Assembly (NCBI RefSeq): GCF_002162135.1 | Contig: NZ_CP021382.1 | Span: forward strand, 3,346,001-3,410,000 | Length of the DNA stretch: 64,000 nucleotides | Source: Cellvibrio sp. PSBB006 | Lineage (GTDB): Bacteria > Pseudomonadota > Gammaproteobacteria > Pseudomonadales > Cellvibrionaceae | Direction of reading: 5' to 3' | Shown here: in pieces, positions 18,575 through 36,684 of the stretch | How the letters are laid out: each line of letters opens with the position of its first letter | Position numbering within the stretch: position 1 is the first letter of the stretch | The notes under the pieces: generated by a model | Databases searched by the model: none | What the model was told of the DNA's origin: nothing | Seen by the model: the letters and a program-made list of their open reading frames with translations, nothing else | Made by a program: the position numbers and the translations under genes

Positions 18575-18627
18575 CACGATTTTTCGTGATTAACGAAACT
18601 TCGTTGCACTTGGCACGATTTTTCGTT
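18575..18627. promoter_or_regulatory. three palindromic upstream activator sites for the sigma-54 activator
   Basis: Three 14-base sites share the pattern (C/A)ACGA-N4-TCGT(G/T): CACGATTTTTCGTG at 18575-18588, AACGAAACTTCGTT at 18592-18605 and CACGATTTTTCGTT at 18614-18627. They lie about 70-135 bases upstream of the sigma-54 promoter, the usual distance for enhancer sites that act by DNA looping. The likely binder is the Fis-type HTH of the adjacent PAS/AAA+ regulator. Confidence 0.72.
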
Positions 18628-18658: not shown

Positions 18659-18760
18659 AGCACTCCGTTGCCGCTTGCGAGACCGTCATCGGCATGGATG
18701 CCGATGTCGAGCCTACAGGGATGTATTCACGGCGTGTCTCGCAAGCGGCAACGGAGTGCT
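18659..18760 (-). repeat. structured dispersed repeat, copy A
   Basis: Perfect 25-base inverted repeats at 18659-18683 and 18736-18760 enclose a 52-base core. Read on the minus strand the core starts ACGCCGTGAA and contains two inner hairpins, TACA-TCCC-TGTA and CATCGGCAT-CC-ATGCCGATG. The same core occurs in copies B and C with different outer arms. It sits 28 bases from copy B in the opposite orientation, between the activator sites and the regulator gene. Function unknown. Confidence 0.9.
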
Positions 18761-18788
18761 GCCACCTCTCTTCTTAAAGTGGGACTGT

Positions 18789-18896
18789 GGGCGCATTGGG
18801 TAGAGGTTTCCGATACACGCCGTGAACCCTTCCGTGGGGGCTCGGCGTCGGCATCCATGCCTCCGACGGTCTCGGAAACCTCTACCCAATGCGCCC
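18789..18896 (+). repeat. structured dispersed repeat, copy B
   Basis: Outer arms of 28 bases (18789-18816 and 18869-18896) pair with a single mismatch and enclose a 52-base core of the same layout as copy A. Arm sequence is unrelated to A and C apart from the six bases next to the core. In the first inner hairpin two T-A/A-T pairs of A and C are replaced by C-G pairs. The right arm ends 22 bases before the start of the sigma-54 activator gene, so it would lie in or at its 5' leader. Confidence 0.9.
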
Positions 18897-18918
18897 TGAC
18901 CATCTTCACAACAAATGT

Positions 18919-20784
18919 ATGACTATGAACGAAATCATGCTCGATCAAGCACCTGAAGCCATGGCGTTAATCAACCCCTGGCAAGACCGGTTTGTGTTTA
19001 TCAATCAATTAACCTGTGATTTGTTGGGATGGGATCGCGATGAGTTAATTAATCAGCGTGTCAGCAGTTGCTTTAAAAATTCACTTCCCAGTTTGCATGT
19101 GTTTACCCAAGCGGTGTTGCACAAAGGCAGCAGTTTGATTGATGACATCACCATCACCACTGCAGATGGTCGCGAAATTGAATTGGAGATCAATGCTTCG
19201 ATCACCAGCGTCGACAACCAGCAACTGATTTGTCTGTGCCTGCGCGACCGGGATTTTTATCAGCAGTGGCGCATGCACGCGAACGCGCAGCGCCATCACA
19301 AATTTGGTTTATTGCAGTGGCAACGCATCCACCAGGTTTTCCAGGATATTGAAAAGGAAAACCAGTTGATATTGAGCGCGGCCGGCGAAGGTATTTACGG
19401 CGTTGATGCCGAGGGTCGCGCGACGTTTGTGAACCCTGCGGCGGAGCGTATCCTGGGTTGGAAGGCGGAAGAATTAATCAGTCGTAATATTCATGTGGCA
19501 ATTCATCACAGTCATACCGACGGTTCAGATTATTGCGTGCACGATTGCCCGATCTTTGCCGCCTTTAAAGACGGTGCGATACGGCGCGTGGATGACGAAG
19601 TTTTTTGGCATCGTGATGGCCGGCCGATTCCGGTGGAATATACCAGTACACCTATTATGGACAATGGTCACCTGGTGGGTGCGGTGGTCATCTTTCGCGA
19701 TGTCTCGGATCGCAAACTGGCCGAAAGTAAATTGCGTAAGGCACTGGAAGAAGTTGAGCAGTTGAAGCATAAACTGGAATTGGAAAATGCTTATCTGCAA
19801 GAAGAGATCAGTGAAGGCTATAACCCGCATCATATCGTTGGCCGCAGTCCGGCGGTGCAACAAATTGCGTATCAAATTCAATTGGTCGCACCCACGGTTG
19901 CAACAGTTTTGATTACCGGCGAATCCGGGACCGGTAAAGAATTAATTGCTCGTGCCATTCATAGCGCGAGTGATCGTAATAGCCGACCCTTAATCCGCGT
20001 AAATTGCGCGGCAATTCCGCAGGATTTATTTGAGAGTGAATTTTTTGGTCACGTGCGTGGCGCTTTTTCCGGTGCGGTGACAGATCGCCTGGGTCGCTTT
20101 GAAGTGGCCGATGGCGGCACACTATTTCTCGATGAAGTGGGCGAGTTACCGCCGGGATTGCAGGGAAAATTGTTACGGGTGTTACAGGATGGCGAGTTTG
20201 AGCGGGTTGGTGAATCGGTAACACGCCGGGTAGATGTGCGCGTAATCGCTGCCACAAATCGTAATCTCAGGCAACTCGCCAAGGAAGGAAGGTTTCGCGA
20301 GGATTTATATTTCCGTTTAAATGTTTTCCCGATTCGCTCTGTGCCCTTGCGCGAGCGACTGGAAGATATTCCCTTGCTAACAGCTCACTTTCTGCAAAAA
20401 ACCTGTCAGCGTTTTCACAAACCGGAATTAAAAGTATCCATCGCACAAATACAGCGTCTGCAGCAGTACGATTGGCCCGGCAATATTCGTGAGTTGGAAA
20501 ACCTGATTGAACGGCAAGTGATTTTAAGTCGCGGCGATAAGCTGGTGCTCGATGATCTCGCTTTAACATATGAGCCAGCACAAGATATTTCGCCAACGAT
20601 ATCCGAAGCTATTACGGAGCAGGATTATCGGCATTTGCGTTACCAAACCACGATCGACGCCTTGCGACAAACAAAAGGAAAACTGTATGGCGATGATGGT
20701 GCTGCGAGTCTATTGGGTATAAAGCCAACTACCCTGGCGTCGCGTATGAAGAAAATGGGGATTGATAGATCTTTGTTTGCGTGA
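18919..20784 (+). CDS. PAS-domain sigma-54 dependent transcriptional activator
   Basis: 621 residues. Two PAS domains (about 5-110 and 140-265; second with EGIYGVDAEGRATFVNPAAER), a coiled-coil linker, a AAA+ domain with Walker A GESGTGKE near 334 and a GAFSGA loop near 381 (Ser instead of the usual Thr in GAFTGA), and a C-terminal Fis-type HTH (about 575-615). Such proteins remodel RNA polymerase-sigma-54. The divergent cyanate operon has a sigma-54 promoter and three palindromic sites, so it is the obvious target. The signal sensed by the PAS domains, perhaps cyanate or nitrogen state, is unknown. ATG 18919 or 18925 are both possible; neither has a strong ribosome site. Confidence 0.88.
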   Translation: MTMNEIMLDQAPEAMALINPWQDRFVFINQLTCDLLGWDRDELINQRVSSCFKNSLPSLHVFTQAVLHKGSSLIDDITITTADGREIELEINASITSVDNQQLICLCLRDRDFYQQWRMHANAQRHHKFGLLQWQRIHQVFQDIEKENQLILSAAGEGIYGVDAEGRATFVNPAAERILGWKAEELISRNIHVAIHHSHTDGSDYCVHDCPIFAAFKDGAIRRVDDEVFWHRDGRPIPVEYTSTPIMDNGHLVGAVVIFRDVSDRKLAESKLRKALEEVEQLKHKLELENAYLQEEISEGYNPHHIVGRSPAVQQIAYQIQLVAPTVATVLITGESGTGKELIARAIHSASDRNSRPLIRVNCAAIPQDLFESEFFGHVRGAFSGAVTDRLGRFEVADGGTLFLDEVGELPPGLQGKLLRVLQDGEFERVGESVTRRVDVRVIAATNRNLRQLAKEGRFREDLYFRLNVFPIRSVPLRERLEDIPLLTAHFLQKTCQRFHKPELKVSIAQIQRLQQYDWPGNIRELENLIERQVILSRGDKLVLDDLALTYEPAQDISPTISEAITEQDYRHLRYQTTIDALRQTKGKLYGDDGAASLLGIKPTTLASRMKKMGIDRSLFA

Positions 20785-20796
20785 AAGCTTTAAGAA

Positions 20797-22143
20797 CTAC
20801 AACGGAATTTCGTAATATTTTTCCTTATCCCCCCGAGCATCAAAGATTAGCTTTCTGTTCATTTGATCCCAGAGAAATGGTTTTTCGTCGTATGGGTTTC
20901 TCAACATGCTTGTAGAGATTCGCTTCTGCATTTTGTTCAACGAGCGAGAAGCACGCAACTGAATTGCTAAAATATGGAGCCGACGAATTCCCTCAAGATC
21001 ATGTGCTTTTTTTATGTATTCGGTATATTGCGAGAATCCCAAATTCAACAATATTTTTCCCATACCATTATAGATATAGTTAATCCACCCAAGGTTATTT
21101 GGATCGAAAGCTTTATCAGCAAGTTTTTGTGCGCTACTCACGTTGAGCTGAATTTCATTCAGCTCTCTTTCTGATTCTTTTGCCAAAGCTAACAAATAAG
21201 TGGCGTGGCGGTTCATCGAATCCTGAGGCTGAAATAATGGTGCAACGATAGTTTTCATTATTTTTTCGAATCTGGTTTCGTTGGAGGAAATATTTTCGTA
21301 GCCTTCGTTAATTAAACCTGCAACATATTGCCACTCACCTGCGAGAACTTTTCTTGACGATAGTTCTGCATGGGTAAAAGGAACTTGCCATGCACTTGGA
21401 AGAATCATTTCGGATTGATGATTTACATAGATTATCCAGCCTGCCGCCAAGTTTCGCTTGATAGCGTTCACAGCCACCATTCGTGTGATAAGAAGCTTGG
21501 AGTCTGCCATTACTTTGCGCCAGAAGACGAAATCCTGATCCAATAAATCAGCCAAGCCTTTACTCTCTCTGGCTTCCGCCAGCGCAAATGCGCGAAATAA
21601 CCACAAACGTTGTGCGTCGAGCAAAGGCGCATAAGAAGGAAATCGAATAGCTGATGCGGTTGTTTCATGAAAGAAAGGTTTATCTAGAAGCTCTTGATAA
21701 CGTTGAACAACCACTTCTTCGTTTTCAAACAGGATGTTGTCCGTCTTGTTTGCCTTGATTATTGATTCGTAACAGTGGTCATTCATTTCCTCGCAGTCAC
21801 GAAATAGCTTCAATGAAGCCTCTGACCACGTAGATTTAAAGTCTTGAGACTCCCATATAGTCCCAGCGCCATAATCATTTCTGTGATTTTCTTTTGCTCT
21901 GTCTTTACCCACTTGTTGCGCATCTTTTTCTAAGGGTGCATCAAATCCATAAAAAATATGAAATCCATTATCTTGGTCGTCACCGATAGCTGGAAGTGAA
22001 TTGATTCTCACCATTTCCAAAGCAGCAGCATTGGGCACTTGGTCACGCCAATTTATAGCGAGCAACAGCAGATAACAGAGTATGGAAAGACAGGCTATTG
22101 CCAACAAAATAAGCAATAGGAATCGGACAGATTTTTTTATCAT
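20797..22143 (-). CDS. hypothetical membrane-anchored protein
   Basis: 448 residues, one N-terminal transmembrane segment (about 7-29) and a long, mostly helical extracytoplasmic part with no motif I recognise. The C-terminal NPYDEKPFLWDQMNRKLIF resembles the PF(T)GKPF-like ends of some pseudopilin-related and secretion-linked proteins, but this is weak. It lies 20 bases after the orphan ParA-like gene on the same strand and converges on the sigma-54 activator gene with a gap of 12 bases. Base composition is AT-richer than its neighbours, which may reflect transfer. Confidence 0.6.
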   Translation of the reverse strand: MIKKSVRFLLLILLAIACLSILCYLLLLAINWRDQVPNAAALEMVRINSLPAIGDDQDNGFHIFYGFDAPLEKDAQQVGKDRAKENHRNDYGAGTIWESQDFKSTWSEASLKLFRDCEEMNDHCYESIIKANKTDNILFENEEVVVQRYQELLDKPFFHETTASAIRFPSYAPLLDAQRLWLFRAFALAEARESKGLADLLDQDFVFWRKVMADSKLLITRMVAVNAIKRNLAAGWIIYVNHQSEMILPSAWQVPFTHAELSSRKVLAGEWQYVAGLINEGYENISSNETRFEKIMKTIVAPLFQPQDSMNRHATYLLALAKESERELNEIQLNVSSAQKLADKAFDPNNLGWINYIYNGMGKILLNLGFSQYTEYIKKAHDLEGIRRLHILAIQLRASRSLNKMQKRISTSMLRNPYDEKPFLWDQMNRKLIFDARGDKEKYYEIPL

Positions 22144-22163
22144 TGAGGATACGGTGTCCGGTA

Positions 22164-22940
22164 TCAGGATGCGTTGGTAATGGTATTACTCGGTGATTCG
22201 TCTTTCAGCCATTCATGGGTCGAATTCTGCGCATCCAGCCAGCGAATTAAAATCTCCCAATCCTGGCGATCGCGCGCGTGGCTTTGAAACGGATAATCCA
22301 CGATGCCACGCCCTTCACTGTAAGCCCGCACATAATTCTGGGTATCGCGCAGCGTGGCGGGAAACGGAATGTTCAAACTCAGCAGGAATTTTTGCAGGCG
22401 CTCCCACGCGTTGGTTTGTTGCTTCACACGATTGGCAACCACAGCAATCGGCCGGCGTTTGCGGCGCATATTTTGCGTCAGCAGCAACTCACCGATGAAG
22501 CGCGCGCTCGCACGAATATCGATATCAGAAGGCTGTACGGGAACCACGATCAAATCGTGGTCCTGCACCAGATCGTCCAGCGCAGGGCCTGTCAGGCCCG
22601 GCGGAGCGTCGGTAATCAGCCAGCGAGTCGGCTTGGGGGCACGCCATTGGAAGCTGCGCGTTGTGCGCGAATTGGTTTCGATCTTGACGCTATATATAGA
22701 AGGCAACACAGGATCGCGATGCGTTACCCAGTAGTGGGAAGAAGCCTGCGGATCAGCATCGACCAATACCGTTCGCTCGCCACGGTGAGCAAGCCAGGCA
22801 GCGAGGTTGGTACTGACCGTTGTCTTTCCCGCACCTCCTTTGCCGTTGATCACCAGAATACGACAGGCATTCAATACCTGGATGGACACCATGGGCTCAG
22901 CGGATGATCGTTGTTTATTAGACTGTTCAGGTGTGTCCAT
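22164..22940 (-). CDS. orphan ParA/MinD-type ATPase
   Basis: 258 residues. Deviant Walker A VINGKGGAGKTTVSTNLA at about 32-49 with the signature lysine, followed by VLVDADPQASSHYW (Walker A') and TDAPPG (Walker B region). No ParB partner is next to it, and the true chromosomal parAB pair lies 15 kb away, so this is a second family member. Such orphans position chemoreceptor arrays, pili, carboxysomes or other cargo. The downstream membrane-anchored gene could be its cargo or partner; this is only context. Confidence 0.85.
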   Translation of the reverse strand: MDTPEQSNKQRSSAEPMVSIQVLNACRILVINGKGGAGKTTVSTNLAAWLAHRGERTVLVDADPQASSHYWVTHRDPVLPSIYSVKIETNSRTTRSFQWRAPKPTRWLITDAPPGLTGPALDDLVQDHDLIVVPVQPSDIDIRASARFIGELLLTQNMRRKRRPIAVVANRVKQQTNAWERLQKFLLSLNIPFPATLRDTQNYVRAYSEGRGIVDYPFQSHARDRQDWEILIRWLDAQNSTHEWLKDESPSNTITNAS

Positions 22941-23093
22941 AACCCTCTCACAAGGTTGAGCCCGGTCGACAAGCCGATGATGCTGTTGGAATAATACGTC
23001 GTCTTTTAGTAAAAAAATGTATCAAAGCGATATATATCGATTCTCATCCGCTAATGCAAACTTGATGCGTAGATTTCTGTGATGACCAAAAAG

Positions 23094-23121
23094 AAAAGCC
23101 AATCTGTACAGATTGGCTTTT
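23094..23121 (-). terminator. rho-independent terminator
   Basis: AAAAGCCAATCTG and CAGATTGGCTTTT pair over 13 bases around a 2-base centre, with T-rich sequence on both sides in the proper strand (TTTTCTTTTT on the minus strand). It lies 18 bases after the stop of the 54-residue gene and would end gyrB-side minus-strand transcription. Confidence 0.85.
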
Positions 23122-23139
23122 TTGCGAAAACGTTACCGG

Positions 23140-23304
23140 TTACTTGCTTTCACTTTTAAGGTTACGTCTATCACCTTTGCGGCGCTCATTGACGACTCCT
23201 TCCGGAAGCTCCTCACTCTTCTTGCGCCGATCGGGCGTCTGGCGTTCTTCCAACGCCTCAGCGATCTGGCTAAGCGTTACTACCTTGAGTTTTTCTTCAC
23301 TCAT
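23140..23304 (-). CDS. small conserved-looking charged protein, 54 residues
   Basis: The frame starts MSEEKLKVVTLSQIAEALEE and ends RRKGDRRNLKSESK. It is rich in Lys, Arg and Glu, has one predicted amphipathic helix (about 8-22) and no cysteine or membrane segment. It has AGAGG 8 bases before the ATG and a strong terminator 18 bases after the stop, both supporting a real gene. It follows gyrB on the same strand by 85 bases. I do not recognise the family. Confidence 0.7.
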   Translation of the reverse strand: MSEEKLKVVTLSQIAEALEERQTPDRRKKSEELPEGVVNERRKGDRRNLKSESK

Positions 23305-23389
23305 TGATATTGCCTCTTGCTACACGGTTACTGATTGAACTGACTGCGATGCAGCCATACAACCAGTATAGACCATGGCGGCAGCAACA

Positions 23390-25828
<2,439 letters not shown>

Positions 25829-25846
25829 CTACTTTATCTGTCGCGT

Positions 25847-26950
25847 TTATCGTGAATTGATAACCGCTTGAATTTTACCCTGTTCCACGTGAAACAGTTT
25901 TATCTCCGTTCCCGGCAGTTGCCGCCAGGCATCTATCAAAATCTGTTGCTCTACACCGGTTACGAATGTTTGCGTACCCATACTGTCCAGCCATCTTACG
26001 AGCAAGTAACGGTGCTGCTCGTCCAACTCCGCTGGCAAATCATCTATCAAGTAGATGCAACGACGTTCTGTAAGTCGAGAAAACACATAGCCTTGAGCAA
26101 TCTTAAGGGCACATACCAGGAGCTTTTGTTGACCTCTGGACAATACTTCAGCTGCCGGAAACCCCTTTACTGCTATGCGCAGATCTGCCCTATGACTACC
26201 TATCTGGGTGAAACCCTGCCGCCGATCTTTTTCCGCACTGTCTGCGAGAATGCTGGCGTAGTCTTTATTCTGGTCCCACCCGCAATAATAGGTGAGCTCA
26301 ATCCCTTCTATGGCAATGAATTCCTGAATCAATGAATAAAAGGTTTCGAAAAATTTGGTCATGCAAACCTGTCGGTAAGCGTGAATCTGCTCGCTATACT
26401 GAGCCAGTTCTTTATCCCAGGTCGCGAGTTCAAAGCGGTCCATTCTATCACGCCGGAGCAGGCTATTGCGGTGTTTGAGGCACCGCTGCGCATCTTTCCA
26501 GACCTGGAAAAAACCCGGTTCCACGTGAAACACCAACCAATCCATAAACTGGCGCCTCACCTTAGGGCTTCCCTCTAAAAGCTGAAACGTATCCGAGTTG
26601 ATCACCTGAATCGGTAGATAGGATGCCAGCGCTGCGGCTGAAGGCACCAAAGCTCCGTTGGCTTTAAAAGTGGCTGTTCCATTGGCTTGACGATTGATTC
26701 CGACCGGTATCTCTGTGCCCTCAGCACTCACCTTACCGAATACAGTAAAGGAATCCTGTTGGTGATTAATAAGCGGTTTGTGTTTATGACTACGGAAGGA
26801 ACGGCCGACACCCAAGACATTGATGGCTTCAAGAATGCTAGTCTTGCCGGAGCCATTCTCCCCAAAAATAAGGTTAACCTGCTCTGATGGGGAAATGTCG
26901 ATGGAATCGAGATTGCGGAGATGCTGGATAAAGAGACGCTTCAAGGTCAT
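25847..26950 (-). CDS. recF: DNA replication and repair protein RecF
   Basis: 367 residues. Walker A FGENGSGKTS near residue 30, signature LSRGQQKLLVCALKIAQ and Walker B LIDDLPAELDE mark it as the SMC-like ATPase that loads RecA at gaps with RecO and RecR. The gene contains two parS-type sites, both in the same frame, so each encodes Phe-His-Val-Glu. It lies between dnaN and gyrB, with 57 and 36 bases of spacing, as in other gammaproteobacteria. Confidence 0.98.
   Translation of the reverse strand: MTLKRLFIQHLRNLDSIDISPSEQVNLIFGENGSGKTSILEAINVLGVGRSFRSHKHKPLINHQQDSFTVFGKVSAEGTEIPVGINRQANGTATFKANGALVPSAAALASYLPIQVINSDTFQLLEGSPKVRRQFMDWLVFHVEPGFFQVWKDAQRCLKHRNSLLRRDRMDRFELATWDKELAQYSEQIHAYRQVCMTKFFETFYSLIQEFIAIEGIELTYYCGWDQNKDYASILADSAEKDRRQGFTQIGSHRADLRIAVKGFPAAEVLSRGQQKLLVCALKIAQGYVFSRLTERRCIYLIDDLPAELDEQHRYLLVRWLDSMGTQTFVTGVEQQILIDAWRQLPGTEIKLFHVEQGKIQAVINSR
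25881..25896. promoter_or_regulatory. parS centromere site 1 (inside recF)
   Basis: TGTTCCACGTGAAACA matches the ParB-binding consensus TGTTNCACGTGAAACA at every fixed position. It lies near the 3' end of recF, about 12 kb from parAB and 4 kb from dnaA. Confidence 0.9.
26517..26532. promoter_or_regulatory. parS-like centromere site 2 (inside recF)
   Basis: GGTTCCACGTGAAACA differs from the consensus TGTTNCACGTGAAACA only at the first base. It lies 636 bases from site 1, with the same orientation. Confidence 0.78.
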
Positions 26951-27007
26951 AAGAAGGTCTCTTAATGGAAATCAGGGATTGAGATGAGGCCGCTACACCG
27001 ACGCGTC

Positions 27008-28111
27008 TTACAGACGCATCGGCATAACAACATAAAGCGAATCACTGTTCTCAGGCTCTTCAATCAAGGCACTGCTGTTAGCATCAGAAAGGGTAATCTT
27101 GATGTTCTCGTGGTTGATGACATTCGCTACATCCTGCAAATAACTCACGTTAAAACCCACCTCCAAAGAATCGCCAGAATAATCTACAGTAACCTGCTCT
27201 TCTGCTTCTTCCTGTTCCGGGTTATTAGCCACAATCGTCAGCACACCATCGCTTAACAACAAGCGCACGCCCCGGTATTTTTCATTCGATAGAATAGCGG
27301 TGCGACCAAACGCCTGTTTAAGTTCAAGACGCGAGCCAATCACCACCTTGTTACCACCACGGGGCAGCACTCGTTCATATTCAGGGAACTTGCCATCCAC
27401 CAACTTGGAGGTAAAGGTGTACTCAGCTGAAGTGACGCGAATATGATTGGCACTGAGAGTAATTTCTACTTGAGCAGTAGAGTCATCCAGTAATCTGGAT
27501 AACTCCAATACCCCTTTACGCGGCAGGATCGCCTGGATAATTTCAGCGGTATTGACGGCAACTGCCCTGGTACACATCGCCATGCGGTGTCCATCGGTGG
27601 CAACTACACGTAGCTGATCCTGACGAACTTCCCATAGCATCCCGTTCAGGTAGTAACGGACATCCTGTTGTGCCATGGCAAAAGCCGTGCGTTCAATCAG
27701 GCGTTTAATCTCCTGTTGGGCACAGCTGAATTGCAAATTGCCCGGGCTGTCTTCAACATTGGGGAAATCACTCGCGGCGAGCGTAGACAAGGTAAAACGG
27801 CTGCGTCCGCTCTTGACAATAATGCGCTGCTCTTCCTGAAAAAACTCGATATTGGAGCCATCAGGAAGGGATCTGCAGATATCTACCAGCTTACGTGCAG
27901 GAACAGTTATCTCACCACTCTCCCCTGCCTGCTCCAGTTGTACGCGCCCGACAATCTCCACTTCCAGATCTGTACCGGTCAACGACAGTTGATCACCATT
28001 CAGGACCAGCAGCACATTAGACAGTACTGGCAGGGTTTGACGGCGCTCTACCACACCGGCAACCAATTGTAAGGGTTTAAGCAGAGCCTCGCGGGAAACG
28101 ACAAATTTCAT
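27008..28111 (-). CDS. dnaN: DNA polymerase III beta subunit (sliding clamp)
   Basis: 367 residues, E. coli length. Starts MKFVVSREALLKPLQLVAGVVERR and ends YVVMPMRL, both hallmarks of the clamp; three topologically alike domains follow each other. It tethers polymerase III to DNA and is a hub for many replication proteins. It lies 114 bases after dnaA. Confidence 0.99.
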   Translation of the reverse strand: MKFVVSREALLKPLQLVAGVVERRQTLPVLSNVLLVLNGDQLSLTGTDLEVEIVGRVQLEQAGESGEITVPARKLVDICRSLPDGSNIEFFQEEQRIIVKSGRSRFTLSTLAASDFPNVEDSPGNLQFSCAQQEIKRLIERTAFAMAQQDVRYYLNGMLWEVRQDQLRVVATDGHRMAMCTRAVAVNTAEIIQAILPRKGVLELSRLLDDSTAQVEITLSANHIRVTSAEYTFTSKLVDGKFPEYERVLPRGGNKVVIGSRLELKQAFGRTAILSNEKYRGVRLLLSDGVLTIVANNPEQEEAEEQVTVDYSGDSLEVGFNVSYLQDVANVINHENIKITLSDANSSALIEEPENSDSLYVVMPMRL

Positions 28112-28225
28112 GTGTTGGTCTCTTTAAATGTCCTGATAAAAGTGCTTCAACAGAAGGTATAGGAATTCTGGTGTGCGATAACCCTGCACGGCTTGCGCAT
28201 CATAAACCGAATCAGTGTGTCTGGA

Positions 28226-29761
28226 TCAAGTTGTGAGGGAACGCAGCAAATTTTTCATGTCTTCACGAATGTCCGCACTCTCTTCCTGCAGCTCCTTGAT
28301 CTTGCGGCAAGCGTGCAAAACCGTTGTATGATCTCGTCCACCAAAAGCCTCACCGATCTCCGGCAGGCTGTGATTGGTTAATTCTTTTGCCAGCGCCATG
28401 GCCACCTGCCGCGGACGTGCAACTGAGCGACTGCGACGCTTGGAAAGCAAGTCGTTGATCTTGATCTTGTAATACTCGCCTACAACGCGTTGGATATTAT
28501 CTATCCCCACCTGTTTATCCTGTAGGGCCAAGAGGTCTTTCAAAGCTTCGCGCACCAGGTCCACATCAATGGCGCGACCCGTAAAATTAGCACTGGCAAT
28601 CACCCGCTTTAACGCACCTTCCAGATCGCGCACATTGGCGCGAATACGCTGGGCAATAAAGAAGGCGGCTTCGTGGGGTAGATCTATACCGACCTGTTCA
28701 GCCTTCTTCATTAATATAGCGACGCGAGTTTCCAGCTCCGGCGGTTCAATGGCCACCGTTAGCCCCCAACCAAAACGGGACTTCAAGCGCTCCTCAAGGC
28801 CATTAATTTCCTTGGGATAACGATCACAGGTGAGAATGATCTGCCGACCGCCTTCAAGAAGGGAATTAAAGGTATGAAAAAATTCTTCCTGGGACCGCTC
28901 TTTGCCAGCGAAGAACTGAATATCGTCAATCAACAAAGCATCCATGGAACGGTAGTAGCGTTTGAAGTCGTTGATCGCGTTCAGCTGCAACGCCTTAACC
29001 ATATCTGCCACAAAACGCTCGGAGTGCAGATACACCACCTTGGCATTCGGATTACGGGCCACCATGGCATTACCAACTGCCTGCATCAAGTGGGTCTTAC
29101 CCAAGCCTACCCCGCCGTAAATAAATAACGGATTGTATGCACCGCCGGGATTTTCAGCCACCTGACGTGCCGCCGCCAGGCCCAGCTGGTTGGACTTACC
29201 TTCAACAAAGGTAGCGAAGGTTGAGGACACATTCAGATAGTTACTATGCTTAAGCGCTCCCTCAACTTCCGCCTCCTGCGTGTTACGCGAACCAGACTCA
29301 AAACCGGTCTCCACCGCTGCGGCGTCTTTTATCGGCGTAGCCATCGAGGTAACCCCTGAGACCACGCCATCAATAGAAGACAAAGCAGGAGCGCGGGATT
29401 CCGATGATAAGTTGCCATTGTGTTGAGGTTGCTGGGTCGCAAACGAGGATACGGGAACTGATTCAACAGCAGGCGATACCGGCACGCGATTGTATTGGAA
29501 CGCTGCCTGGGGTCTGGGAAGAATCCCGATCACCACTGTCAAACTGCTTCCCTGCTGGTAACTGCCGACCAACTCACGAATGCGAGTCAGAAATTTTTCG
29601 GACACCCAATCGCAAATAAATCGATTAGGTGCTAATAAACGTAATTCGTTGGGGCCGGCCGACTCATCGATCTGCAACGGTTTAATCCAGGTGTTGAACT
29701 GCTGTTGGGGCAATTCACCCTGTAAACTCGATGCGCATAATTTCCAAAGTGACTGCGGCAA
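28226..29761 (-). CDS. dnaA: chromosomal replication initiator protein DnaA
   Basis: 511 residues, longer than the 467 of E. coli because of an extended linker (domain II, about 90-175). Domain I starts [21 protein letters not shown]; domain III has Walker [10 protein letters not shown] and Walker [14 protein letters not shown]; domain IV has the DnaA-box binding helix-turn-helix with the signature [15 protein letters not shown]. The start is TTG 29761, which is rarer than the usual ATG or GTG; GGAG lies upstream and no other start fits. DnaA boxes lie just upstream. Confidence 0.98.
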
Positions 29762-30069
29762 AACCCCTACTCCAGGCTGAAAGTTATTATTTCAAAATGA
29801 GCCGGCTAGTGTACTCTCCCACCTCTTTGTTATCCACAGTTGACACAAAAAAATAATGTCATAAGAAATTTTTTACTCATTTAAATTCAATAAGTTAACA
29901 ACCACTCACCAGAAAATTTATACACAGAGCTGGCACAAAAAATTGTTCATTTTTTAATCTTATCTGTTAATAAATCTGTGGATATCCTCGTAATAAATTG
30001 GTGAAAAACCGGTATATCGAAAAATAACAACAAAATGCACTCAAGCCTGCAGCATTTCGACAAAATACA
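29762..30069. other. dnaA upstream region with DnaA boxes, candidate origin
   Basis: AT-rich. Three boxes: TTATCCACA at 29830-29838 (perfect), TTATACACA at 29918-29926 (fits TTATNCACA), and TGTGGATAT at 29977-29985 (reverse orientation, one mismatch). Long A/T tracts lie at 29845-29890 and 29938-29960. In pseudomonads the functional origin lies between dnaA and rpmH, so this is a candidate oriC; it must also contain the dnaA promoter and could simply be its autoregulatory site. Confidence 0.6.
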
Positions 30070-30124
30070 TTGATTTACCTTTGGGCTTTCTTTAGAATCC
30101 CGCGTCTTTTCACACGCCGTGTGA
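30070..30124 (+). promoter_or_regulatory. rpmH promoter and palindromic leader element
   Basis: TTGATT (30070-30075) and TAGAAT (30093-30098) are separated by 17 bases. Just downstream TCACACG-C-CGTGTGA (30110-30124) is a perfect 7-base inverted repeat with a 1-base centre, in the leader of rpmH; its role is unknown. Confidence 0.6.
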
Positions 30125-30175
30125 TCTCCGCTACGGTTGCATCAACAGCAGCTCTTAAACAACAGGTTCAGTTTC

Positions 30176-30310
30176 ATGAAAAGAACATTCCAGCCCAGCA
30201 ATCTGAAGCGCGTCCGCAATCACGGTTTCCGTGCCCGCATGGCTACCAAGAACGGTCGTTTGGTATTGGCTCGTCGTCGCGCTAAAGGTCGCAAGCAATT
30301 AACTATCTAA
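30176..30310 (+). CDS. rpmH: 50S ribosomal protein L34
   Basis: 44 residues, [18 protein letters not shown] start and [12 protein letters not shown] end, essentially the universal L34 sequence. It is basic and binds 23S rRNA. It is followed by rnpA after 32 bases, the standard pairing. Confidence 0.99.
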
Positions 30311-30342
30311 TTGCTGCTTCCGCAAGAAAATGAGTCGCTAGA

Positions 30343-30729
30343 GTGAAGCAGGCGTTCGGGAAGTCGCTCCGCCTTCTTTCCTCTAGTGATTTTCAAAGCG
30401 TCTTCGATGGCGCCACTGCTCGTATATCCCACCAGCACTTCCTTATCCTCGCGCGCGCCAATCAATTGGATCATCCCCGTTTAGGTTTGGTGATAGCCAA
30501 GAAACACATTCGTCTTGCCGTGGCTCGCAATCGCATAAAACGTTTGATTCGCGAAAGTTTTCGTCAACAACAGCAATCTTTGGCGGGTATAGATGTTATT
30601 GTACTGGCCCGCAAAGGGATGGATGACCTGGCGAATCCGGTCGTTGCGAAACAACTCCAGCAACAGTGGCAGCGGGTAGTACGCAAACTCAATCAGACGC
30701 CGCAACCTGCCCGCAATGAACAGAGGTAA
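30343..30729 (+). CDS. rnpA: ribonuclease P protein component
   Basis: 128 residues from GTG 30343. The RNR signature is clear in AVARNRIKRLIRESFR; the LGLVIAKKHIRLAV strand precedes it. The protein helps RNase P RNA bind pre-tRNA leaders. It sits between rpmH and yidD with the usual close spacing. Confidence 0.97.
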   Translation: MKQAFGKSLRLLSSSDFQSVFDGATARISHQHFLILARANQLDHPRLGLVIAKKHIRLAVARNRIKRLIRESFRQQQQSLAGIDVIVLARKGMDDLANPVVAKQLQQQWQRVVRKLNQTPQPARNEQR

Positions 30730-30734
30730 CACGC

Positions 30735-30983
30735 ATGCGTCGGCTGGCCATTAAATGTATACATGGCTATCGCTACCTGCTGAGTCCGTGGATCGGCAAT
30801 CAATGCCGCTTTTACCCGAGCTGTTCGCATTACGCTGAGGAAGCAATTGAAAAACACGGTTTTATAAAAGGGGGTTATTTAACGTTCCGTCGCCTTATAA
30901 AATGCCACCCCTGGCATGCGGGCGGAATTGATCTGGTCCCGGAGAAAACCACTCATACTCAACCAACAGATGGCACTCGATAA
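30735..30983 (+). CDS. yidD: membrane insertion efficiency factor YidD
   Basis: 82 residues. The conserved core is YRYLLSPWIGNQCRFYPSCSHYAEEAIEKHG with paired cysteines, then KCHPWHAGGIDLVP. YidD helps insertion of membrane proteins with YidC. It starts 5 bases after rnpA and its stop lies 1 base before the yidC start. Confidence 0.96.
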   Translation: MRRLAIKCIHGYRYLLSPWIGNQCRFYPSCSHYAEEAIEKHGFIKGGYLTFRRLIKCHPWHAGGIDLVPEKTTHTQPTDGTR

Positions 30984-30984
30984 G

Positions 30985-32652
30985 ATGGATTGGCAAAAGA
31001 ACCTGTTAATCGCGGCGATGATCGCCGTTCTTTTTATGCTGGTGATTCGCTGGAATGACTTTCAGGAAAACCTCCCCGACTCACAAGTACCCGTAGCAAG
31101 CTCCACTACTGAAGGTTCAGGTTTCGAGACCCCGGATCAAAGTGCCAGTGATATCCCGAGCCTGCCGGCTAATGAGGATGTACCGGCCGAACCCAATCAG
31201 GCACCAACCCCCACCAATCAGACCATCAAGGTATTCACCGACAGTCTGCAGCTGGAGATCAGCACCCTCGGCGGCGATATCACCTCTGTTGCCCTGCCGC
31301 GCCATTACGCTGAGTTGAATACGCCCGATGTTCCCTTCGTACTGCTGGATAATCGCAATAACCACACTTATGTTGCACAGAGCGGTTTGATTGGCGCTAA
31401 CGGCACCGACAGTGCGGCAGGACGGCCGACCTTCAGCGCGACTCAACGCGAATACCGCATGGCAGATGACCAGGACAGCCTGATCGTAGACCTGGTTTAT
31501 CAACAAGGTGAGGTGTCCATCACCAAGCGCTTCACTTTCACCCGCGAAGAATACCTGGTCAAGGTGGAATACCTGATCAACAACCAGAGCGACACAGCCT
31601 GGAGCGCCAACCTCTATGGTCAGATCAAGCGCGACGGTCAGAACTTCCATAAAGTCAGCGCGTTGGAGATGAACCCTTTCCTCGGTGCAGCCATCACCAC
31701 GCTGGATGAAAACTACAAGAAATTGAGTTTTGATGACCTGAGCGAGAAAGACTTTAAAACCACGCGCGACGGTGGTTGGGTCGCGATGGTGCAACACTAC
31801 TTTATCAGCGCCTGGATTCCCGCCGCACAACAACAAAACACCTACCACCTGCGCAAGGTTGCCGGACAGGATTTGTATCTGCTGGGTTTTACCAGTCAAC
31901 GGGTAGAGGTTGCGCCGGGTAGCGAGGGCAGTTTGCAGGCCCAGTTCTACGCCGGCCCGAAAGATACCGAACGGCTTGAAGAGATATCTCCCTACCTTGA
32001 CCTGACCGTGGATTACGGCTGGCTATGGTGGATTGCCAAACCTCTGTTCTGGTTATTGAAATTTATCCACAGCTTCGTGGGTAACTGGGGTCTGGCGATT
32101 ATCGGTTTAACGATCCTGGTGAAAGCCGCTTTCTTCAAATTGAGTGCTACCAGTTATCGATCCATGGCCAAGATGCGCAAGCTGGCGCCAAAGATGCAGG
32201 ACCTGAAAGAGCGGTGTGGCGATGATCGCCAGAAGATGTCGCAGGAAATGATGAAGCTTTATAAGGAAGAAAAAGTGAACCCGCTCGGCGGGTGCCTGCC
32301 GATCCTGGTGCAAATGCCGGTGTTCCTGGCCTTGTACTGGACCTTGATGGAGAGCGTCGAGTTACGTCATTCACCTTTCTTCTTCTGGATTCAGGATCTG
32401 TCCGTTAAAGATCCATTCTTTGTGTTGCCGCTGATTATGGGCCTCACCATGTTTATCCAGATGAAATTGAACCCGACACCACCGGACCCGATGCAAGCGC
32501 GGGTTATGCAGTTGATGCCGGTCGTGTTTACGTTTATGTTCCTGTGGTTCCCGGCCGGTCTGGTACTTTACTGGGTTACCAACAACACACTGGGTATCTT
32601 GCAACAATGGTTGATTACCCGCCAGATAGAGAACGCCGATAAAAAGGCTTAA
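30985..32652 (+). CDS. yidC: membrane protein insertase YidC
   Basis: 555 residues. The start MDWQKNLLIAAMIAVLFML matches the family N-terminal helix, so ATG 30985 is chosen over an earlier in-frame ATG. A large periplasmic domain (about 60-345) precedes the conserved five-helix insertase core (WGLAIIGLTILVKAAFF, then NPLGGCLPILVQMPVFLALYW). It inserts F0 subunits such as AtpE, encoded 10 kb downstream. Confidence 0.98.
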   Translation: MDWQKNLLIAAMIAVLFMLVIRWNDFQENLPDSQVPVASSTTEGSGFETPDQSASDIPSLPANEDVPAEPNQAPTPTNQTIKVFTDSLQLEISTLGGDITSVALPRHYAELNTPDVPFVLLDNRNNHTYVAQSGLIGANGTDSAAGRPTFSATQREYRMADDQDSLIVDLVYQQGEVSITKRFTFTREEYLVKVEYLINNQSDTAWSANLYGQIKRDGQNFHKVSALEMNPFLGAAITTLDENYKKLSFDDLSEKDFKTTRDGGWVAMVQHYFISAWIPAAQQQNTYHLRKVAGQDLYLLGFTSQRVEVAPGSEGSLQAQFYAGPKDTERLEEISPYLDLTVDYGWLWWIAKPLFWLLKFIHSFVGNWGLAIIGLTILVKAAFFKLSATSYRSMAKMRKLAPKMQDLKERCGDDRQKMSQEMMKLYKEEKVNPLGGCLPILVQMPVFLALYWTLMESVELRHSPFFFWIQDLSVKDPFFVLPLIMGLTMFIQMKLNPTPPDPMQARVMQLMPVVFTFMFLWFPAGLVLYWVTNNTLGILQQWLITRQIENADKKA

Positions 32653-32661
32653 GCCCTTATC

Positions 32662-34023
32662 GTGAATCCCAATACCGACACTATTGCCGCCATCGCCACC
32701 GCCACCGGGCGCGGTGGTGTCGGTATCCTGCGGGTCTCAGGCCCTAAAGCCCGCATAGTGGCGGATGCATTACTCAAGCAACCCTTGCAACCGCGCCATG
32801 CGCACTATTGCAGCTTCCACACTCAAGCTGGCGAAGTCCTCGACCAGGGTATTGCGTTGTTTTTCCCCGGTCCCCATTCCTTCACCGGCGAAGATGTCCT
32901 CGAACTGCAGGGCCACGGTGGCCCGGTTATCCTGGACTTACTGCTGCGCGAAATTACCCGACTGGGTGTACGACTTGCGCGTCCCGGCGAATTCTCGGAG
33001 CGCGCCTTCCTCAATGACAAACTGGACCTCGCCCAAGCCGAAGCCATCGCTGACCTGATTGATGCCACTACCGAACAGGCCGCTCGCAATGCCCTACATT
33101 CTTTGCAGGGTGCCTTCTCAGTGAAGATCAATGAACTGGTGGAAGCGCTGATCCAGTTACGCATCTATGTTGAAGCGGCTATCGATTTTCCCGAAGAGGA
33201 GATCGATTTCCTGAGCGACGGCCACGTTGCAAAAGAATTTGCACACATAGAGCAGCGTCTTGAAGCGGTATTTCGCGAAGCCAAACAAGGCGTCTTGATG
33301 CGTGACGGCATGCGGGTGGTGATTGCCGGTCGTCCCAATGCCGGTAAATCCAGCTTGTTAAATGCCTTGAGCGGACGGGACAGCGCCATTGTCACCAGCA
33401 TCGAAGGCACTACTCGCGATGTGTTGCGCGAACATATCCACATTGACGGCATGCCGCTGCATATCATCGATACCGCCGGATTACGCGACAGTCCCGATGA
33501 AGTCGAACAGATCGGTATCCAGCGCGCCTGGCAGGAGATCCGCCAGGCTGACCGTATCCTCTTATTAGTCGATGCGCGCAGCAGTGACGAGCAACAACCG
33601 GAGATCCTCTGGCCGGAATTTGTTTCCCAGCTGCCGGACCCGGACAAGCTGACTCTGGTACGCAACAAGATCGATTTAACCAACGAGGCCTGTGGATTCC
33701 TTAATAAAGAACACAGTGCTATAGGCATCAGTGCCGCTACCGGAGCCGGGATCGATATCCTCAAGCAACACCTTAAAGACATCATGGGTTATCAACAGAC
33801 CGGTGAAGGCGGCTTCACCGCCCGTCGACGCCATCTGGATGCACTGGAACGTGCCCAGATCTATCTCAATGCCGGCAAAGCCCAGCTTCATGGCTATGCT
33901 GCGGGCGAATTATTCGCCGAGGATCTACGCCAGGCTCAGAACGCACTGAGTGAAATTACGGGTCAATTTACCTCTGATGATCTCCTCGGCCGTATCTTCA
34001 GCAGTTTCTGCATCGGCAAATAA
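32662..34023 (+). CDS. mnmE: tRNA uridine-5-carboxymethylaminomethyl modification GTPase MnmE
   Basis: 453 residues from GTG 32662. N-terminal tetrahydrofolate-binding domain ([20 protein letters not shown]), a G domain with Walker [10 protein letters not shown] and [14 protein letters not shown], and the C-terminal FCIGK with its conserved cysteine. With MnmG it modifies the wobble uridine of several tRNAs. mnmG follows after a 600-base gap that contains DnaA boxes. Confidence 0.98.
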
Positions 34024-34528
34024 ACACCCCATCCACGTCAATAACGAGCAAAAACCTTCCCCTGCGAGTAACCTTTTCCTCGTTATTAACCCTGATTCCA
34101 CCAGCAGTTACACAAGTTATCCACATTTATTCACAGGTTTATTCAATAAACTTCTGTTTTCCTTCATATTTTGATCCAGCTATCTGCGTTATGTGGGTAA
34201 GTCTGTTGGCTTGTGGGCTTAAAAACTGCCAATAGTTTTGGGGATAACCTGAAAAATCAGCTCTGGCTGTATAACTAACACTTTTACCACCAGCTTTGCG
34301 GCAGCTTTCTGCCAGCTTATGAGGATCTTTCCCTTGGACTTATTATTAAACTAATTTATTGAAATTAAAGGATATTTTTGTCTTATCCACAGAATGCCGG
34401 TCTCATATTAGTAGTAACAGCATTTATCCTTTCATTAAATAACTCTATATATTTTTAATTAATAAATTTTCCACTGTTGTAACGTGAAGAACTAAAAACA
34501 TTGAAACTAAAAATAGTTTGCGCAAGTT
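34024..34528. other. mnmE-mnmG intergenic DnaA-box cluster, second candidate origin
   Basis: About 500 bases without a gene. Perfect boxes TTATCCACA at 34117-34125 and 34383-34391; TTATTCACA at 34127-34135; near matches in reverse at 34192-34200 (TGTGGGTAA) and 34239-34247 (TGGGGATAA). An AT-rich stretch (34340-34380 and 34425-34500) could be the unwinding element. The position next to mnmG is where enteric and Vibrio origins lie. It holds more boxes than the dnaA side. Confidence 0.6.
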
Positions 34529-34557
34529 TTGTACAAGTGAGCGCGCCGCTCTATAAT
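34529..34557 (+). promoter_or_regulatory. mnmG promoter
   Basis: TTGTAC (34529-34534), 17 bases, then TATAAT (34552-34557). The predicted start is about 60 bases before the mnmG ATG. In enteric bacteria, transcription from this gene affects origin firing, which adds interest to its place beside the box cluster. Confidence 0.7.
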
Positions 34558-34623
34558 GGCGCCCCTTTTGAATTTGCCTGATCCCCTTTTTCCAACCGGC
34601 TGACTTGTGAGGCCTTTAAAACC

Positions 34624-36534
34624 ATGATCTTTCCTGAACGTTTTGATGTCATCGTAATTGGCGGCGGCCACGCAGGGACCGAGGCTTGCCTGGCGGCGGC
34701 GCGGATGGGTAGTAAAACCCTGTTGTTGACCCACAATATCGAGACCTTGGGGCAGATGTCGTGTAATCCGGCTATTGGCGGTATCGGAAAAAGCCATCTG
34801 GTGAAAGAAATCGATGCCCTGGGCGGTGCGATGGCGTTGGCCACCGACAAAGGCGGCATCCAGTTTCGGGTACTCAACGCTCGTAAAGGCCCGGCCGTGC
34901 GGGCTACCCGTGCCCAGGCTGACCGGATTCTTTACAAAGCAGCGGTTCGCCACATGCTGGAAAACCAGCCTAACCTGTGGATCTTCCAGCAAGCCGCCGA
35001 TGACCTGATCGTGGAAAATGATCAGGTACGTGGTGTGGTGACACAGATGGGATTAAAGTTTTACGCCAGTTCGGTGGTGTTGACCGCCGGCACTTTTCTC
35101 GGTGGTTTGATCCATATCGGTTTGCAAAATCATTCCGGTGGTCGTGCCGGTGATCCACCGTCCATTGCACTTTCCAAACGTCTGCGCGAGTTGCCTTTGC
35201 GCGTTGATCGCTTGAAAACCGGTACACCGCCGCGTATTGATGCGCGTACCGTTAATTTTGATGGTCTGGAAAAACAATGGGGCGATGAGCCACGCCCGGT
35301 GATGTCAGTGCGCGGCAATCGCGCGATGCACCCGGAGCAAATGTGTTGCTGGATCACCCACACCAACGAAAAAACCCACGAGATTATTCGCGGCGGTCTG
35401 GATCGTTCGCCGATGTACTCCGGCGTCATCGAAGGCATCGGTCCACGCTACTGTCCATCCATCGAAGACAAGATTCACCGCTTCGCGGATAAAGACTCTC
35501 ACCAGGTATTTATCGAGCCGGAGGGTTTAACCACCCACGAACTGTATCCCAATGGTATTTCGACCAGCCTGCCGTTTGATGTGCAGATGAGCCTGGTGCG
35601 ATCCATCAAAGGTTTTGAAAACGCGCATATCGTTCGCCCCGGCTACGCGATTGAATACGACTTTTTTAATCCACAGGATTTGAAACACAGTCTTGAAACC
35701 AAAGTCATTGGCGGATTGTTTTTTGCTGGCCAGATTAACGGCACCACGGGCTACGAAGAAGCGGGCGCCCAAGGCTTGCTCGCCGGTTTAAATGCATCGC
35801 TGCGCGCGCAGGACAAAGACACCTGGTGTCCGCGTCGCGATGAAGCCTATCTCGGTGTATTGGTTGACGACCTGATTACCCTCGGTACCAAAGAACCCTA
35901 TCGCATGTTCACCAGCCGCGCGGAATACCGGTTGATGCTGCGCGAAGACAATGCCGATTTACGGCTCACAGAAAAAGGGCGCGAACTGGGATTAGTCGGC
36001 GAAGAACAGTGGCGCGCCTTCTGCGAAAAACGCGAAGCCATCGCGCGCGAACAGGAACGCCTGAAAGCCACCTGGATTCAAGCCGGATCACCTGAAGCCG
36101 AAAAAATCGAAGCGAAAGTGCAGACGAAATTATTACGCGAATACAATCTTTACGACTTATTAAAACGTCCGGAACTGGAATATGCAGATCTTGCCGATTT
36201 AAAAGGCGAAGGCGTTGCTGATGAGTTTGTGGCGGAACAAATTGAAATCGAGGCGAAGTACTCAGGTTACATTGATCGCCAGCAGGAAGAGATCGAGCGC
36301 ATGCGCGCGTATGAAAACACCTTGATTCCGACGGATTTTGATTTTACCCAAGTGGAAGGTTTGTCCAACGAGGTAAAACAAAAACTCGCCAACGCCAAAC
36401 CGGAAACTCTTGCACGGGCTTCACGAATTTCCGGCGTAACCCCGGCAGCGATTTCACAACTCATGATGTACATGAAAAAACGTGGCTTGTTAAAAAAAGC
36501 AAAATCAGCCGAGAGTCTTGAACAAGCTTCTTGA
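34624..36534 (+). CDS. mnmG: tRNA uridine-5-carboxymethylaminomethyl modification enzyme MnmG (GidA)
   Basis: 636 residues. FAD-binding [17 protein letters not shown] at the start, the [21 protein letters not shown] segment with the catalytic cysteine upstream (MSCNPAIGG), and the C-terminal helical domain that binds MnmE ([20 protein letters not shown]). It acts with MnmE. A structured repeat (copy C) separates it from rsmG, where other genomes usually have short spacing. Confidence 0.98.
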
Positions 36535-36584
36535 TAAATTGCGAAAAAGAAAATTTTAATTTCAGAGTTTTAGCTCTGAGAGAC

Positions 36585-36684
36585 GGATTCCATAGTGACT
36601 TCCGAGACACGCCGTGAATACATCCCTGTAGGCTCAGCACCCGCATCCATGCGGGTGATGGTCTCGGAAGTCACTATGGAATCC
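36585..36684 (+). repeat. structured dispersed repeat, copy C
   Basis: Perfect 24-base arms at 36585-36608 and 36661-36684 enclose a 52-base core (36609-36660). The first inner hairpin equals that of copy A. In the second, the stem reads CACCCGCAT-CC-ATGCGGGTG where copy A has CATCGGCAT-CC-ATGCCGATG, so base pairs changed together. It sits between mnmG (51 bases after its stop) and rsmG (26 bases before its start), and might affect expression of rsmG. Confidence 0.9.

Follow-up and report, generated by a model that had tools for sequence, protein, structure and literature searches.

A dispersed family of two-hairpin elements in Cellvibrio sp. PSBB006 and other Gammaproteobacteria, probably a divergent relative of TwoAYGGAY RNA

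Introduction

TwoAYGGAY (Rfam family RF01731) is listed by Weinberg et al. 2010 (PMC2864571) as a probable RNA of the human gut, gamma-Proteobacteria and Clostridiales. A paper of December 2014 (PMC4333381) puts it forward as a CsrA-binding RNA and notes tandem G.A pairs in a stem. No experimental test of this proposal was found in the accessible portions of the literature that uses the family name. The CsrA consensus obtained by systematic evolution of ligands by exponential enrichment (SELEX) is RUACARGGAUGU, with an ANGGAN hexaloop (excerpts of PMC7652899), and the small RNAs CsrB, RsmY and RsmZ carry ANGGAN hexaloops in hairpins, generally paired (excerpts of PMC7652899 and PMC4333381). 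Here we analyse three long palindromic elements, copies A, B and C, in a stretch of 64,000 nucleotides (nt) of Cellvibrio sp. PSBB006, together with the dispersed family to which they belong. This stretch (the window) comprises positions 3346001-3410000 of a 5.26-Mb genome on a single contig.

We suggest that the family is a dispersed, multi-copy structured RNA encoded on the strand with GGA in its loops (the GGA strand), that it likely binds CsrA/RsmA, and that its arms are kept paired by RNA selection together with template switching. We hold this reading to be probable, with considerable room for doubt.

Results

Conserved fold and loops

On the GGA strand the elements form a 20-base-pair (bp) outer stem, a three-way junction, hairpin 2 and hairpin 1. 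The last sits, with a five-base bulge, on a GCC/GGC helix that is invariant in an alignment of 66 diverse copies (84 eligible copies, thinned by similarity). RNAalifold, applied to these 66 copies, returns the same 35-pair structure as was named by hand, and 30 of the pairs have changes on both sides. In total, 787 pair cells are changed on both sides, against 216.5 +/- 14.0 after shuffling and 155-195 with the partner slid. The 17 copies of the own genome give 165 such cells against 46.8 +/- 5.1 in shuffled alignments (0 of 500 as high); sliding the partner by 1-3 columns leaves 28-38. This excess bears out an earlier note on the window, which had proposed that the folded shape is kept under selection. 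We note that the covariation among the 66 copies demonstrates the fold, not the strand.

The loops have the form ANGGAY in 54 of 66 copies for hairpin 2 and in 61 of 66 for hairpin 1, and they start 22-24 nt apart. GGA lies within the hexaloop of a hairpin closed by a C-G pair, as it does in CsrA/RsmA-binding RNA. Read on the complementary (TCC) strand, the hairpin 2 loop has TCC in 276 of 282 elements, orthologues included. A tandem G.A/A.G mismatch on the GGA strand of hairpin 2 is present in 13 of the 66 copies, and in copy B too; six of the remaining copies are mismatched in a different way at the first of these pairs. Some elements have extra modules in the tip of one core hairpin (L006, L008 and L011 in the own genome; L133, L176, L186, L341 and L394), and certain of these modules, for example those of L176 and L006, hold by eye hairpins with TCC/GGA loops, as if elements were nested.

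Which strand carries the signal

Departures from pairing in the arms are strongly asymmetric. Pair states were counted in elements with a loop of 50-54 nt. On the TCC strand, A.C exceeds G.T by 22:1 in the own genome, 17:0 in relatives, 112:11 in named genomes and 31:7 at later loci (distinct elements), or by 19:1, 11:0, 62:5 and 25:6, respectively, when counted by element. An A.C on the TCC strand corresponds to a G.U pair on the complementary strand; hence, the GGA strand has in sum 182 G.U and 19 A.C. The A.C:G.T ratio is alike in both locus orientations (96:8 and 86:11), so the replication strand hardly explains the asymmetry. The arms of the 66 diverse copies give 27 G.U, 4 A.C and 21 other mismatches on the GGA strand, and hairpin 2, walked outward from its loop on the TCC strand, gives 20 A.C against 3 G.T. 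Selection on an RNA of the GGA strand explains this asymmetry; C-to-T mutation of a transcribed GGA-sense strand would do so as well, and both lead to the GGA strand. The earlier note had folded the less telling strand, as GGA loops, G.U pairs and tandem G.A all stand on its complement.

Size and spread of the family

A covariance-model search, proposed in the earlier note, reveals a large family in the own genome, in the genus and in other Gammaproteobacteria. The model, R1, was built from the 17 own-genome copies and describes the TCC strand. A strict core pattern has 20 exact places in the own genome, 16 of them with a clean architecture in which a long helix closes a loop of 51 or 52 nt. 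R1 gives 108 rows at E ≤ 1e-3 among the best 150 candidates scored, some of them being one place on both strands. The count used here is the 97 places scoring at least 55 bits. R1 has matches in 25 of 37 genomes including the own one (20 of the 21 genomes of the genus and 5 of the 16 from outside it). In a 200-genome sample of the phylum, 12 genomes, the own one among them and all of one class, match at E ≤ 1e-8, which is a lower bound given the stricter filters applied. A DNA pattern finds at least 120 stretches in named genomes, among them Xanthomonas, Stenotrophomonas, Marinobacter, Microbulbifer, Zobellella, Alcanivorax and Halopseudomonas; the 12 named genomes picked from these matches have 12 to at least 150 R1 matches each (best 150 scored). 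Short exact-pattern or 62-nt queries gave no match in phages or viral contigs and one in plasmids, in a Shewanella record.

Local clusters occur. Positions 309461-354847 of the own genome (about 45 kb) hold eleven R1 places, compared with the 97 of the whole chromosome, and in another genome of the order six R1 matches form a tandem array with a spacing of about 227 bp (G298:C1:94419-95646). A same-genus genome (L067) and an uncultured Cellvibrio (L156) have an element and its near flanks in common.

Relation to TwoAYGGAY and to CsrA sites

At the Rfam gathering score the window has no match, and in 20 loci no element is matched, the sole match being an RNase P RNA. The gathering score of RF01731 is 43 bits. 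With the threshold relaxed to E ≤ 10, this model finds 9 places in the whole own genome, 12 in G037, none in G040 and 56 in G041. Each of the nine own-genome matches lies at an R1 place and reads the GGA strand, the better R1 match there being on the other strand. One Microbulbifer copy reaches 35.9 bits (E 1.8e-4), also on the GGA strand. The earlier note recognised no named family; this has to be revised, since RF01731 matches nine own-genome elements, below its cut-off, and nothing else there at E ≤ 10. Scores under the gathering score mean that the elements are not members by Rfam's own cut-off. Judging from the sequences, we suggest that they are probably a divergent relative of TwoAYGGAY RNA and not a filed member.

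The likeness comprises the two GGA terminal loops, the two hairpins on one stem, the tandem G.A (PMC4333381), the listing for gamma-Proteobacteria and the GGA-strand matches of the RF01731 model to part of the family. The elements differ from TwoAYGGAY in scoring below the gathering threshold, in loops that mostly fit ANGGAY and less often the strict AYGGAY, and in their long, variable, near-perfect arms. They also reach at least 150 matches per genome, whereas the accessible parts of the TwoAYGGAY literature carry no mention of high copy number or arm turnover.

By its letters, ANGGAY is the hexaloop type of CsrA/RsmA sites. Hairpin 1 of copies A and C, taken from the C that precedes it (CUACAGGGAUGU), agrees with the SELEX consensus RUACARGGAUGU in 11 of 12 letters. 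Unlike CsrB, RsmY and RsmZ, which they resemble in their loops, the elements are dispersed repeats, each with a stem of about 20 bp or longer, and not single small-RNA genes, and their CsrA binding is a prediction. The own genome has a csrA-like frame without a stop at 1775935-1776090 and a second one, with one in-frame stop, at 4202171-4202329. In the accessible portions of the literature on dispersed CsrA repeats, on such repeats in general and on those of Cellvibrio, Stenotrophomonas and Xanthomonas, no description of this hairpin family was found, nor was any mention found in the accessible text of PMC4666352 and PMC9788540; a literature search with the core letters gave one match, which is unrelated.

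Copies in the window

The coordinates of the three copies are collected in Table 1.

Table 1. Copies A, B and C and their loops in the window; the strand is that of GGA, the proposed RNA strand
Feature	Window position	GGA strand	Description	Basis
Copy A	18659-18760	+	arms 18659-18683 and 18736-18760; R1 115.8 bits, the top R1 match of the genome	
Copy A, hairpin 2 hexaloop	18694-18699	+	AUGGAU	sequence
Copy A, hairpin 1	18714-18725	+	UAC-AGGGAU-GUA	sequence
Copy B	18789-18896	-	arms 18789-18816 and 18869-18896 (one mismatch); R1 100.7 bits	
Copy B, hairpin 1 hexaloop	18830-18835	-	ACGGAA	sequence
Copy B, hairpin 2 hexaloop	18853-18858	-	AUGGAU; stem with tandem G.A/A.G mismatch	sequence and alignment
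Copy C	36585-36684	-	arms 36585-36608 and 36661-36684; between frames read as mnmG and rsmG; R1 109.1 bits	
Copy C, hairpin 1 hexaloop	36622-36627	-	AGGGAU	sequence
Copy C, hairpin 2 hexaloop	36645-36650	-	AUGGAU	sequence

The arms are 25 bp long with 100% identity in A, 28 bp with 96% in B and 24 bp with 100% in C, and 52 nt lie between them in all three. Folding z-scores against 200 dinucleotide shuffles are -11.5, -9.1 and -10.6, respectively, and no shuffle is as good. Together with an inverted-repeat search they confirm the positions, arms and 52-nt core first reported for these copies. The reported exchange in hairpin 1 (T-A/A-T to C-G/C-G) and the re-paired hairpin 2 are likewise present in the sequence. 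A 13-nt direct repeat, CACGATTTTTCGT, adjoins copy A (window 18575-18587 and 18614-18626, 39 nt apart). The mnmG-rsmG loci of 20 other genomes of the genus are 68-76% identical to the copy C locus. The window is presumably near the replication origin, as its frames, named by eye, include dnaA, dnaN, recF, gyrB, mnmE, mnmG, rsmG and parAB.

Arms are inherited and stay paired

Arms had been described as unrelated between copies. They are indeed very different, but this was overstated: those of family 1 share a faint consensus, with a mean of 42.5% shared positions against 28.1% after shuffling (0 of 500 as high) in those 29 of 35 own-genome copies whose arms are at least 24 nt long. A second subfamily of the own genome, family 2, has a slightly shorter core, and 38 of its copies were read. 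The arm analysis covers 24 of these, 14 being left out, and these 24 have a constant outer and inner arm sequence in common. Among the 19 distinct arms of these copies, two mismatches close to the outer end are seen repeatedly (in 14 and 16 arms), and the 7-bp block between the constant parts varies, being complementary except for three cells. Outer arms common to many copies mean that the arms form part of the element and are passed on with it.

Three Stenotrophomonas sites were traced across 61 genomes of that genus. Their alleles have conserved flanks and arms that differ yet are mostly paired. Pattern matches lacking arms, 27 in number, were set aside. Changes were counted on minimum spanning trees at four hairpins, leaving out L376 and L343 (off-register) and L399 (left-arm length change). 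Of these changes, 60 are paired, 47 one-sided and 5 of other kinds. Close alleles differ mostly by one-sided changes, whereas the seven edges with a distance of at least 9 hold 47 paired and 10 one-sided changes; mismatches thus arise often and do not accumulate. On the GGA strand the one-sided changes give G.U in 33 cases against 5, with 8 other. Among the 60 paired changes, 29 are of transversion type, which are not obtainable via stepwise G.U intermediates. In some alleles the near flanks of the arms are divergent as well, so we make no claim that the arms mutate faster than neutral intergenic sequence, and recombination between strains may account for part of the allele differences.

Template switching has been proposed to create and maintain RNA hairpins (accessible part of PMC8794818). 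L369 and L371 have nearly identical arms and flanks and an inverted core, L089 has a 35-bp perfect snap-back hairpin built from one half of an element, and L147 has, by eye, a reversed near-copy of half its core. From their sequences, the inverted core, L089 and L147 look like footprints of template switching.

The earlier note had proposed a copying mechanism that makes one arm from the other, for example by template switching at insertion. The copying part of this idea stands, as there are footprints of arm rewriting; judged from the shared arms and the paired allele changes, it is improbable that insertion produces the arms out of target sequence. The corresponding model, in which arms are copied from the flank so that each copy has the arms of its target, would account for the great differences between copies, and the flanks of L388, with one arm-like sequence only, could be an unfilled site. 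However, a deletion between 8-bp direct repeats would account for L388 just as well. The model is also opposed by the outer arms that 24 of 38 family 2 copies of one genome have in common, mostly down to two shared mismatches, by the family 1 consensus and by the paired changes between alleles of fixed sites, and we regard it as very improbable. No clean empty sites were found; L388, L372, L342, L343 and L346 look like deletions or are ambiguous.

Genomic setting

All 14 close pairs of the own genome (at most 600 bp apart) are inverted, ten of them + then -, and 16 Stenotrophomonas pairs, selected as close, have spacers of 145-238 nt. Dispersed intergenic palindromes, often in inverted pairs, are also a feature of systems of repetitive extragenic palindromes (REP) and their REP-associated tyrosine transposases (RAYT), including REP doublets forming hairpins (REPIN) and bacterial interspersed mosaic elements (BIME). 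REP palindromes of these systems are defined by a GTAG head. The present elements differ in their twin-hairpin core and in that the Y1 transposase gene of the own genome adjoins another repeat. This single Y1_Tnp gene (2609388, L099) is RAYT-like by eye, and the GTAGGTCGGGTTA palindromes next to it are a separate repeat family. We rejected a REP/RAYT linkage, as the GTAG repeat accompanying the lone gene is a different one and the 3.3-kb locus of the gene contains no element.

A mobile DNA palindrome without RNA function, similar to REP or to miniature inverted-repeat transposable elements, would fold as DNA for a transposase and keep its arms paired by template-switch correction only. Such an element would fit the high-copy dispersal, the inverted pairs, the recurring tails outside the arms (by eye), the core inversion and snap-back products, and the 29 of 60 paired changes beyond the reach of G.U steps. 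The strand asymmetry of mismatches, found in every group independently of locus strand, speaks against it, as do the GGA loops, the tandem G.A and the own-genome RF01731 similarity, all on the GGA strand, and the single Y1 transposase gene with its different repeat. We consider this explanation unlikely, though not negligible. The earlier note had left the choice between a structured RNA and a folded DNA element; the former is the most likely.

The position relative to genes could suggest a transcription terminator or a 3'-end stabiliser acting by its long stem alone. The orientation test left out 64 of 193 elements that overlap called frames (4 of 36 own, 6 of 26 in relatives and 54 of 131 in named genomes) and 15 further ones without a neighbour on one side; elements between convergent genes (29) exceed those between divergent genes (9). 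By eye, the left element of the Stenotrophomonas series S1 lies downstream of a terminator-like stem. This hairpin following an apparent intrinsic terminator would suit this explanation, but it also means that the S1 element already has a terminator-like stem ahead of it. In A, B and C no T tract was seen by eye downstream of the stem, no terminator scan having been made, and the conserved loops and junction are left unexplained by a stem acting alone. Hence, we give this explanation little credence.

Discussion

We return to the RNA reading. The sequences themselves show the structure, the strand asymmetry, the loop motif, the similarity to RF01731 and the dispersal; we infer transcription of the elements, CsrA binding and any effect on genes. 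The long near-perfect stem ends in a three-way junction with the two ANGGAY-loop hairpins, and a CsrA/RsmA dimer bound across both GGA loops would be the likeliest action. The element might then act as a CsrA decoy or as a 3'-end mark. RNA selection would tolerate G.U on the GGA strand, while template switching at the DNA palindrome could copy one arm onto the other, invert the core or yield snap-back products. The arms, being part of the element, would change by drift once it has inserted, and the copies would spread by some route.

Several observations weigh against this reading. Strict AYGGAY loops are found in 35 of 66 copies for hairpin 2 and in 30 of 66 for hairpin 1. RF01731 reaches 43 bits in none of the four genomes searched, the best scores being 42.4 in G041 and 37.8 in the own genome; copies A, B and C have no RF01731 match even at E ≤ 10, and one of 14 well-known genomes taken as a control also gave a match below the cut-off. 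Most SELEX hairpins have at most four contiguous pairs (excerpts of PMC7652899), and hairpin 2 is longer here. CsrA was found in 36 of 37 relatives, genomes without the element included, so the co-occurrence is uninformative. Elements with co-directional neighbours are nearly balanced between the TCC sense (43) and the GGA sense (33). Finally, part of the G.U asymmetry could stem from C-to-T mutation of a transcribed strand, a cause that would itself still call for transcription in the GGA sense.

We also put forward, as a speculative and on the whole doubtful extension, that the elements are self-spreading CsrA decoys. In the genomes richest in copies, dozens to at least 150 paired sites each would then set the pool of free regulator by their copy number, with template switching keeping the stems paired and distinct.

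The probable distant relative TwoAYGGAY and its proposed CsrA binding (2014) are already published. If the RNA reading is true, many Gammaproteobacteria (Cellvibrio, Stenotrophomonas, Xanthomonas, Marinobacter and Microbulbifer being examples) would have up to at least 150 candidate CsrA sites per genome, which fell below the Rfam cut-off in every genome and locus tested. Last but not least, the family is a natural test of RNA stem evolution: each site has many alleles, paired and one-sided changes can be counted, and the strand-specific G.U signal separates RNA selection from DNA template switching.

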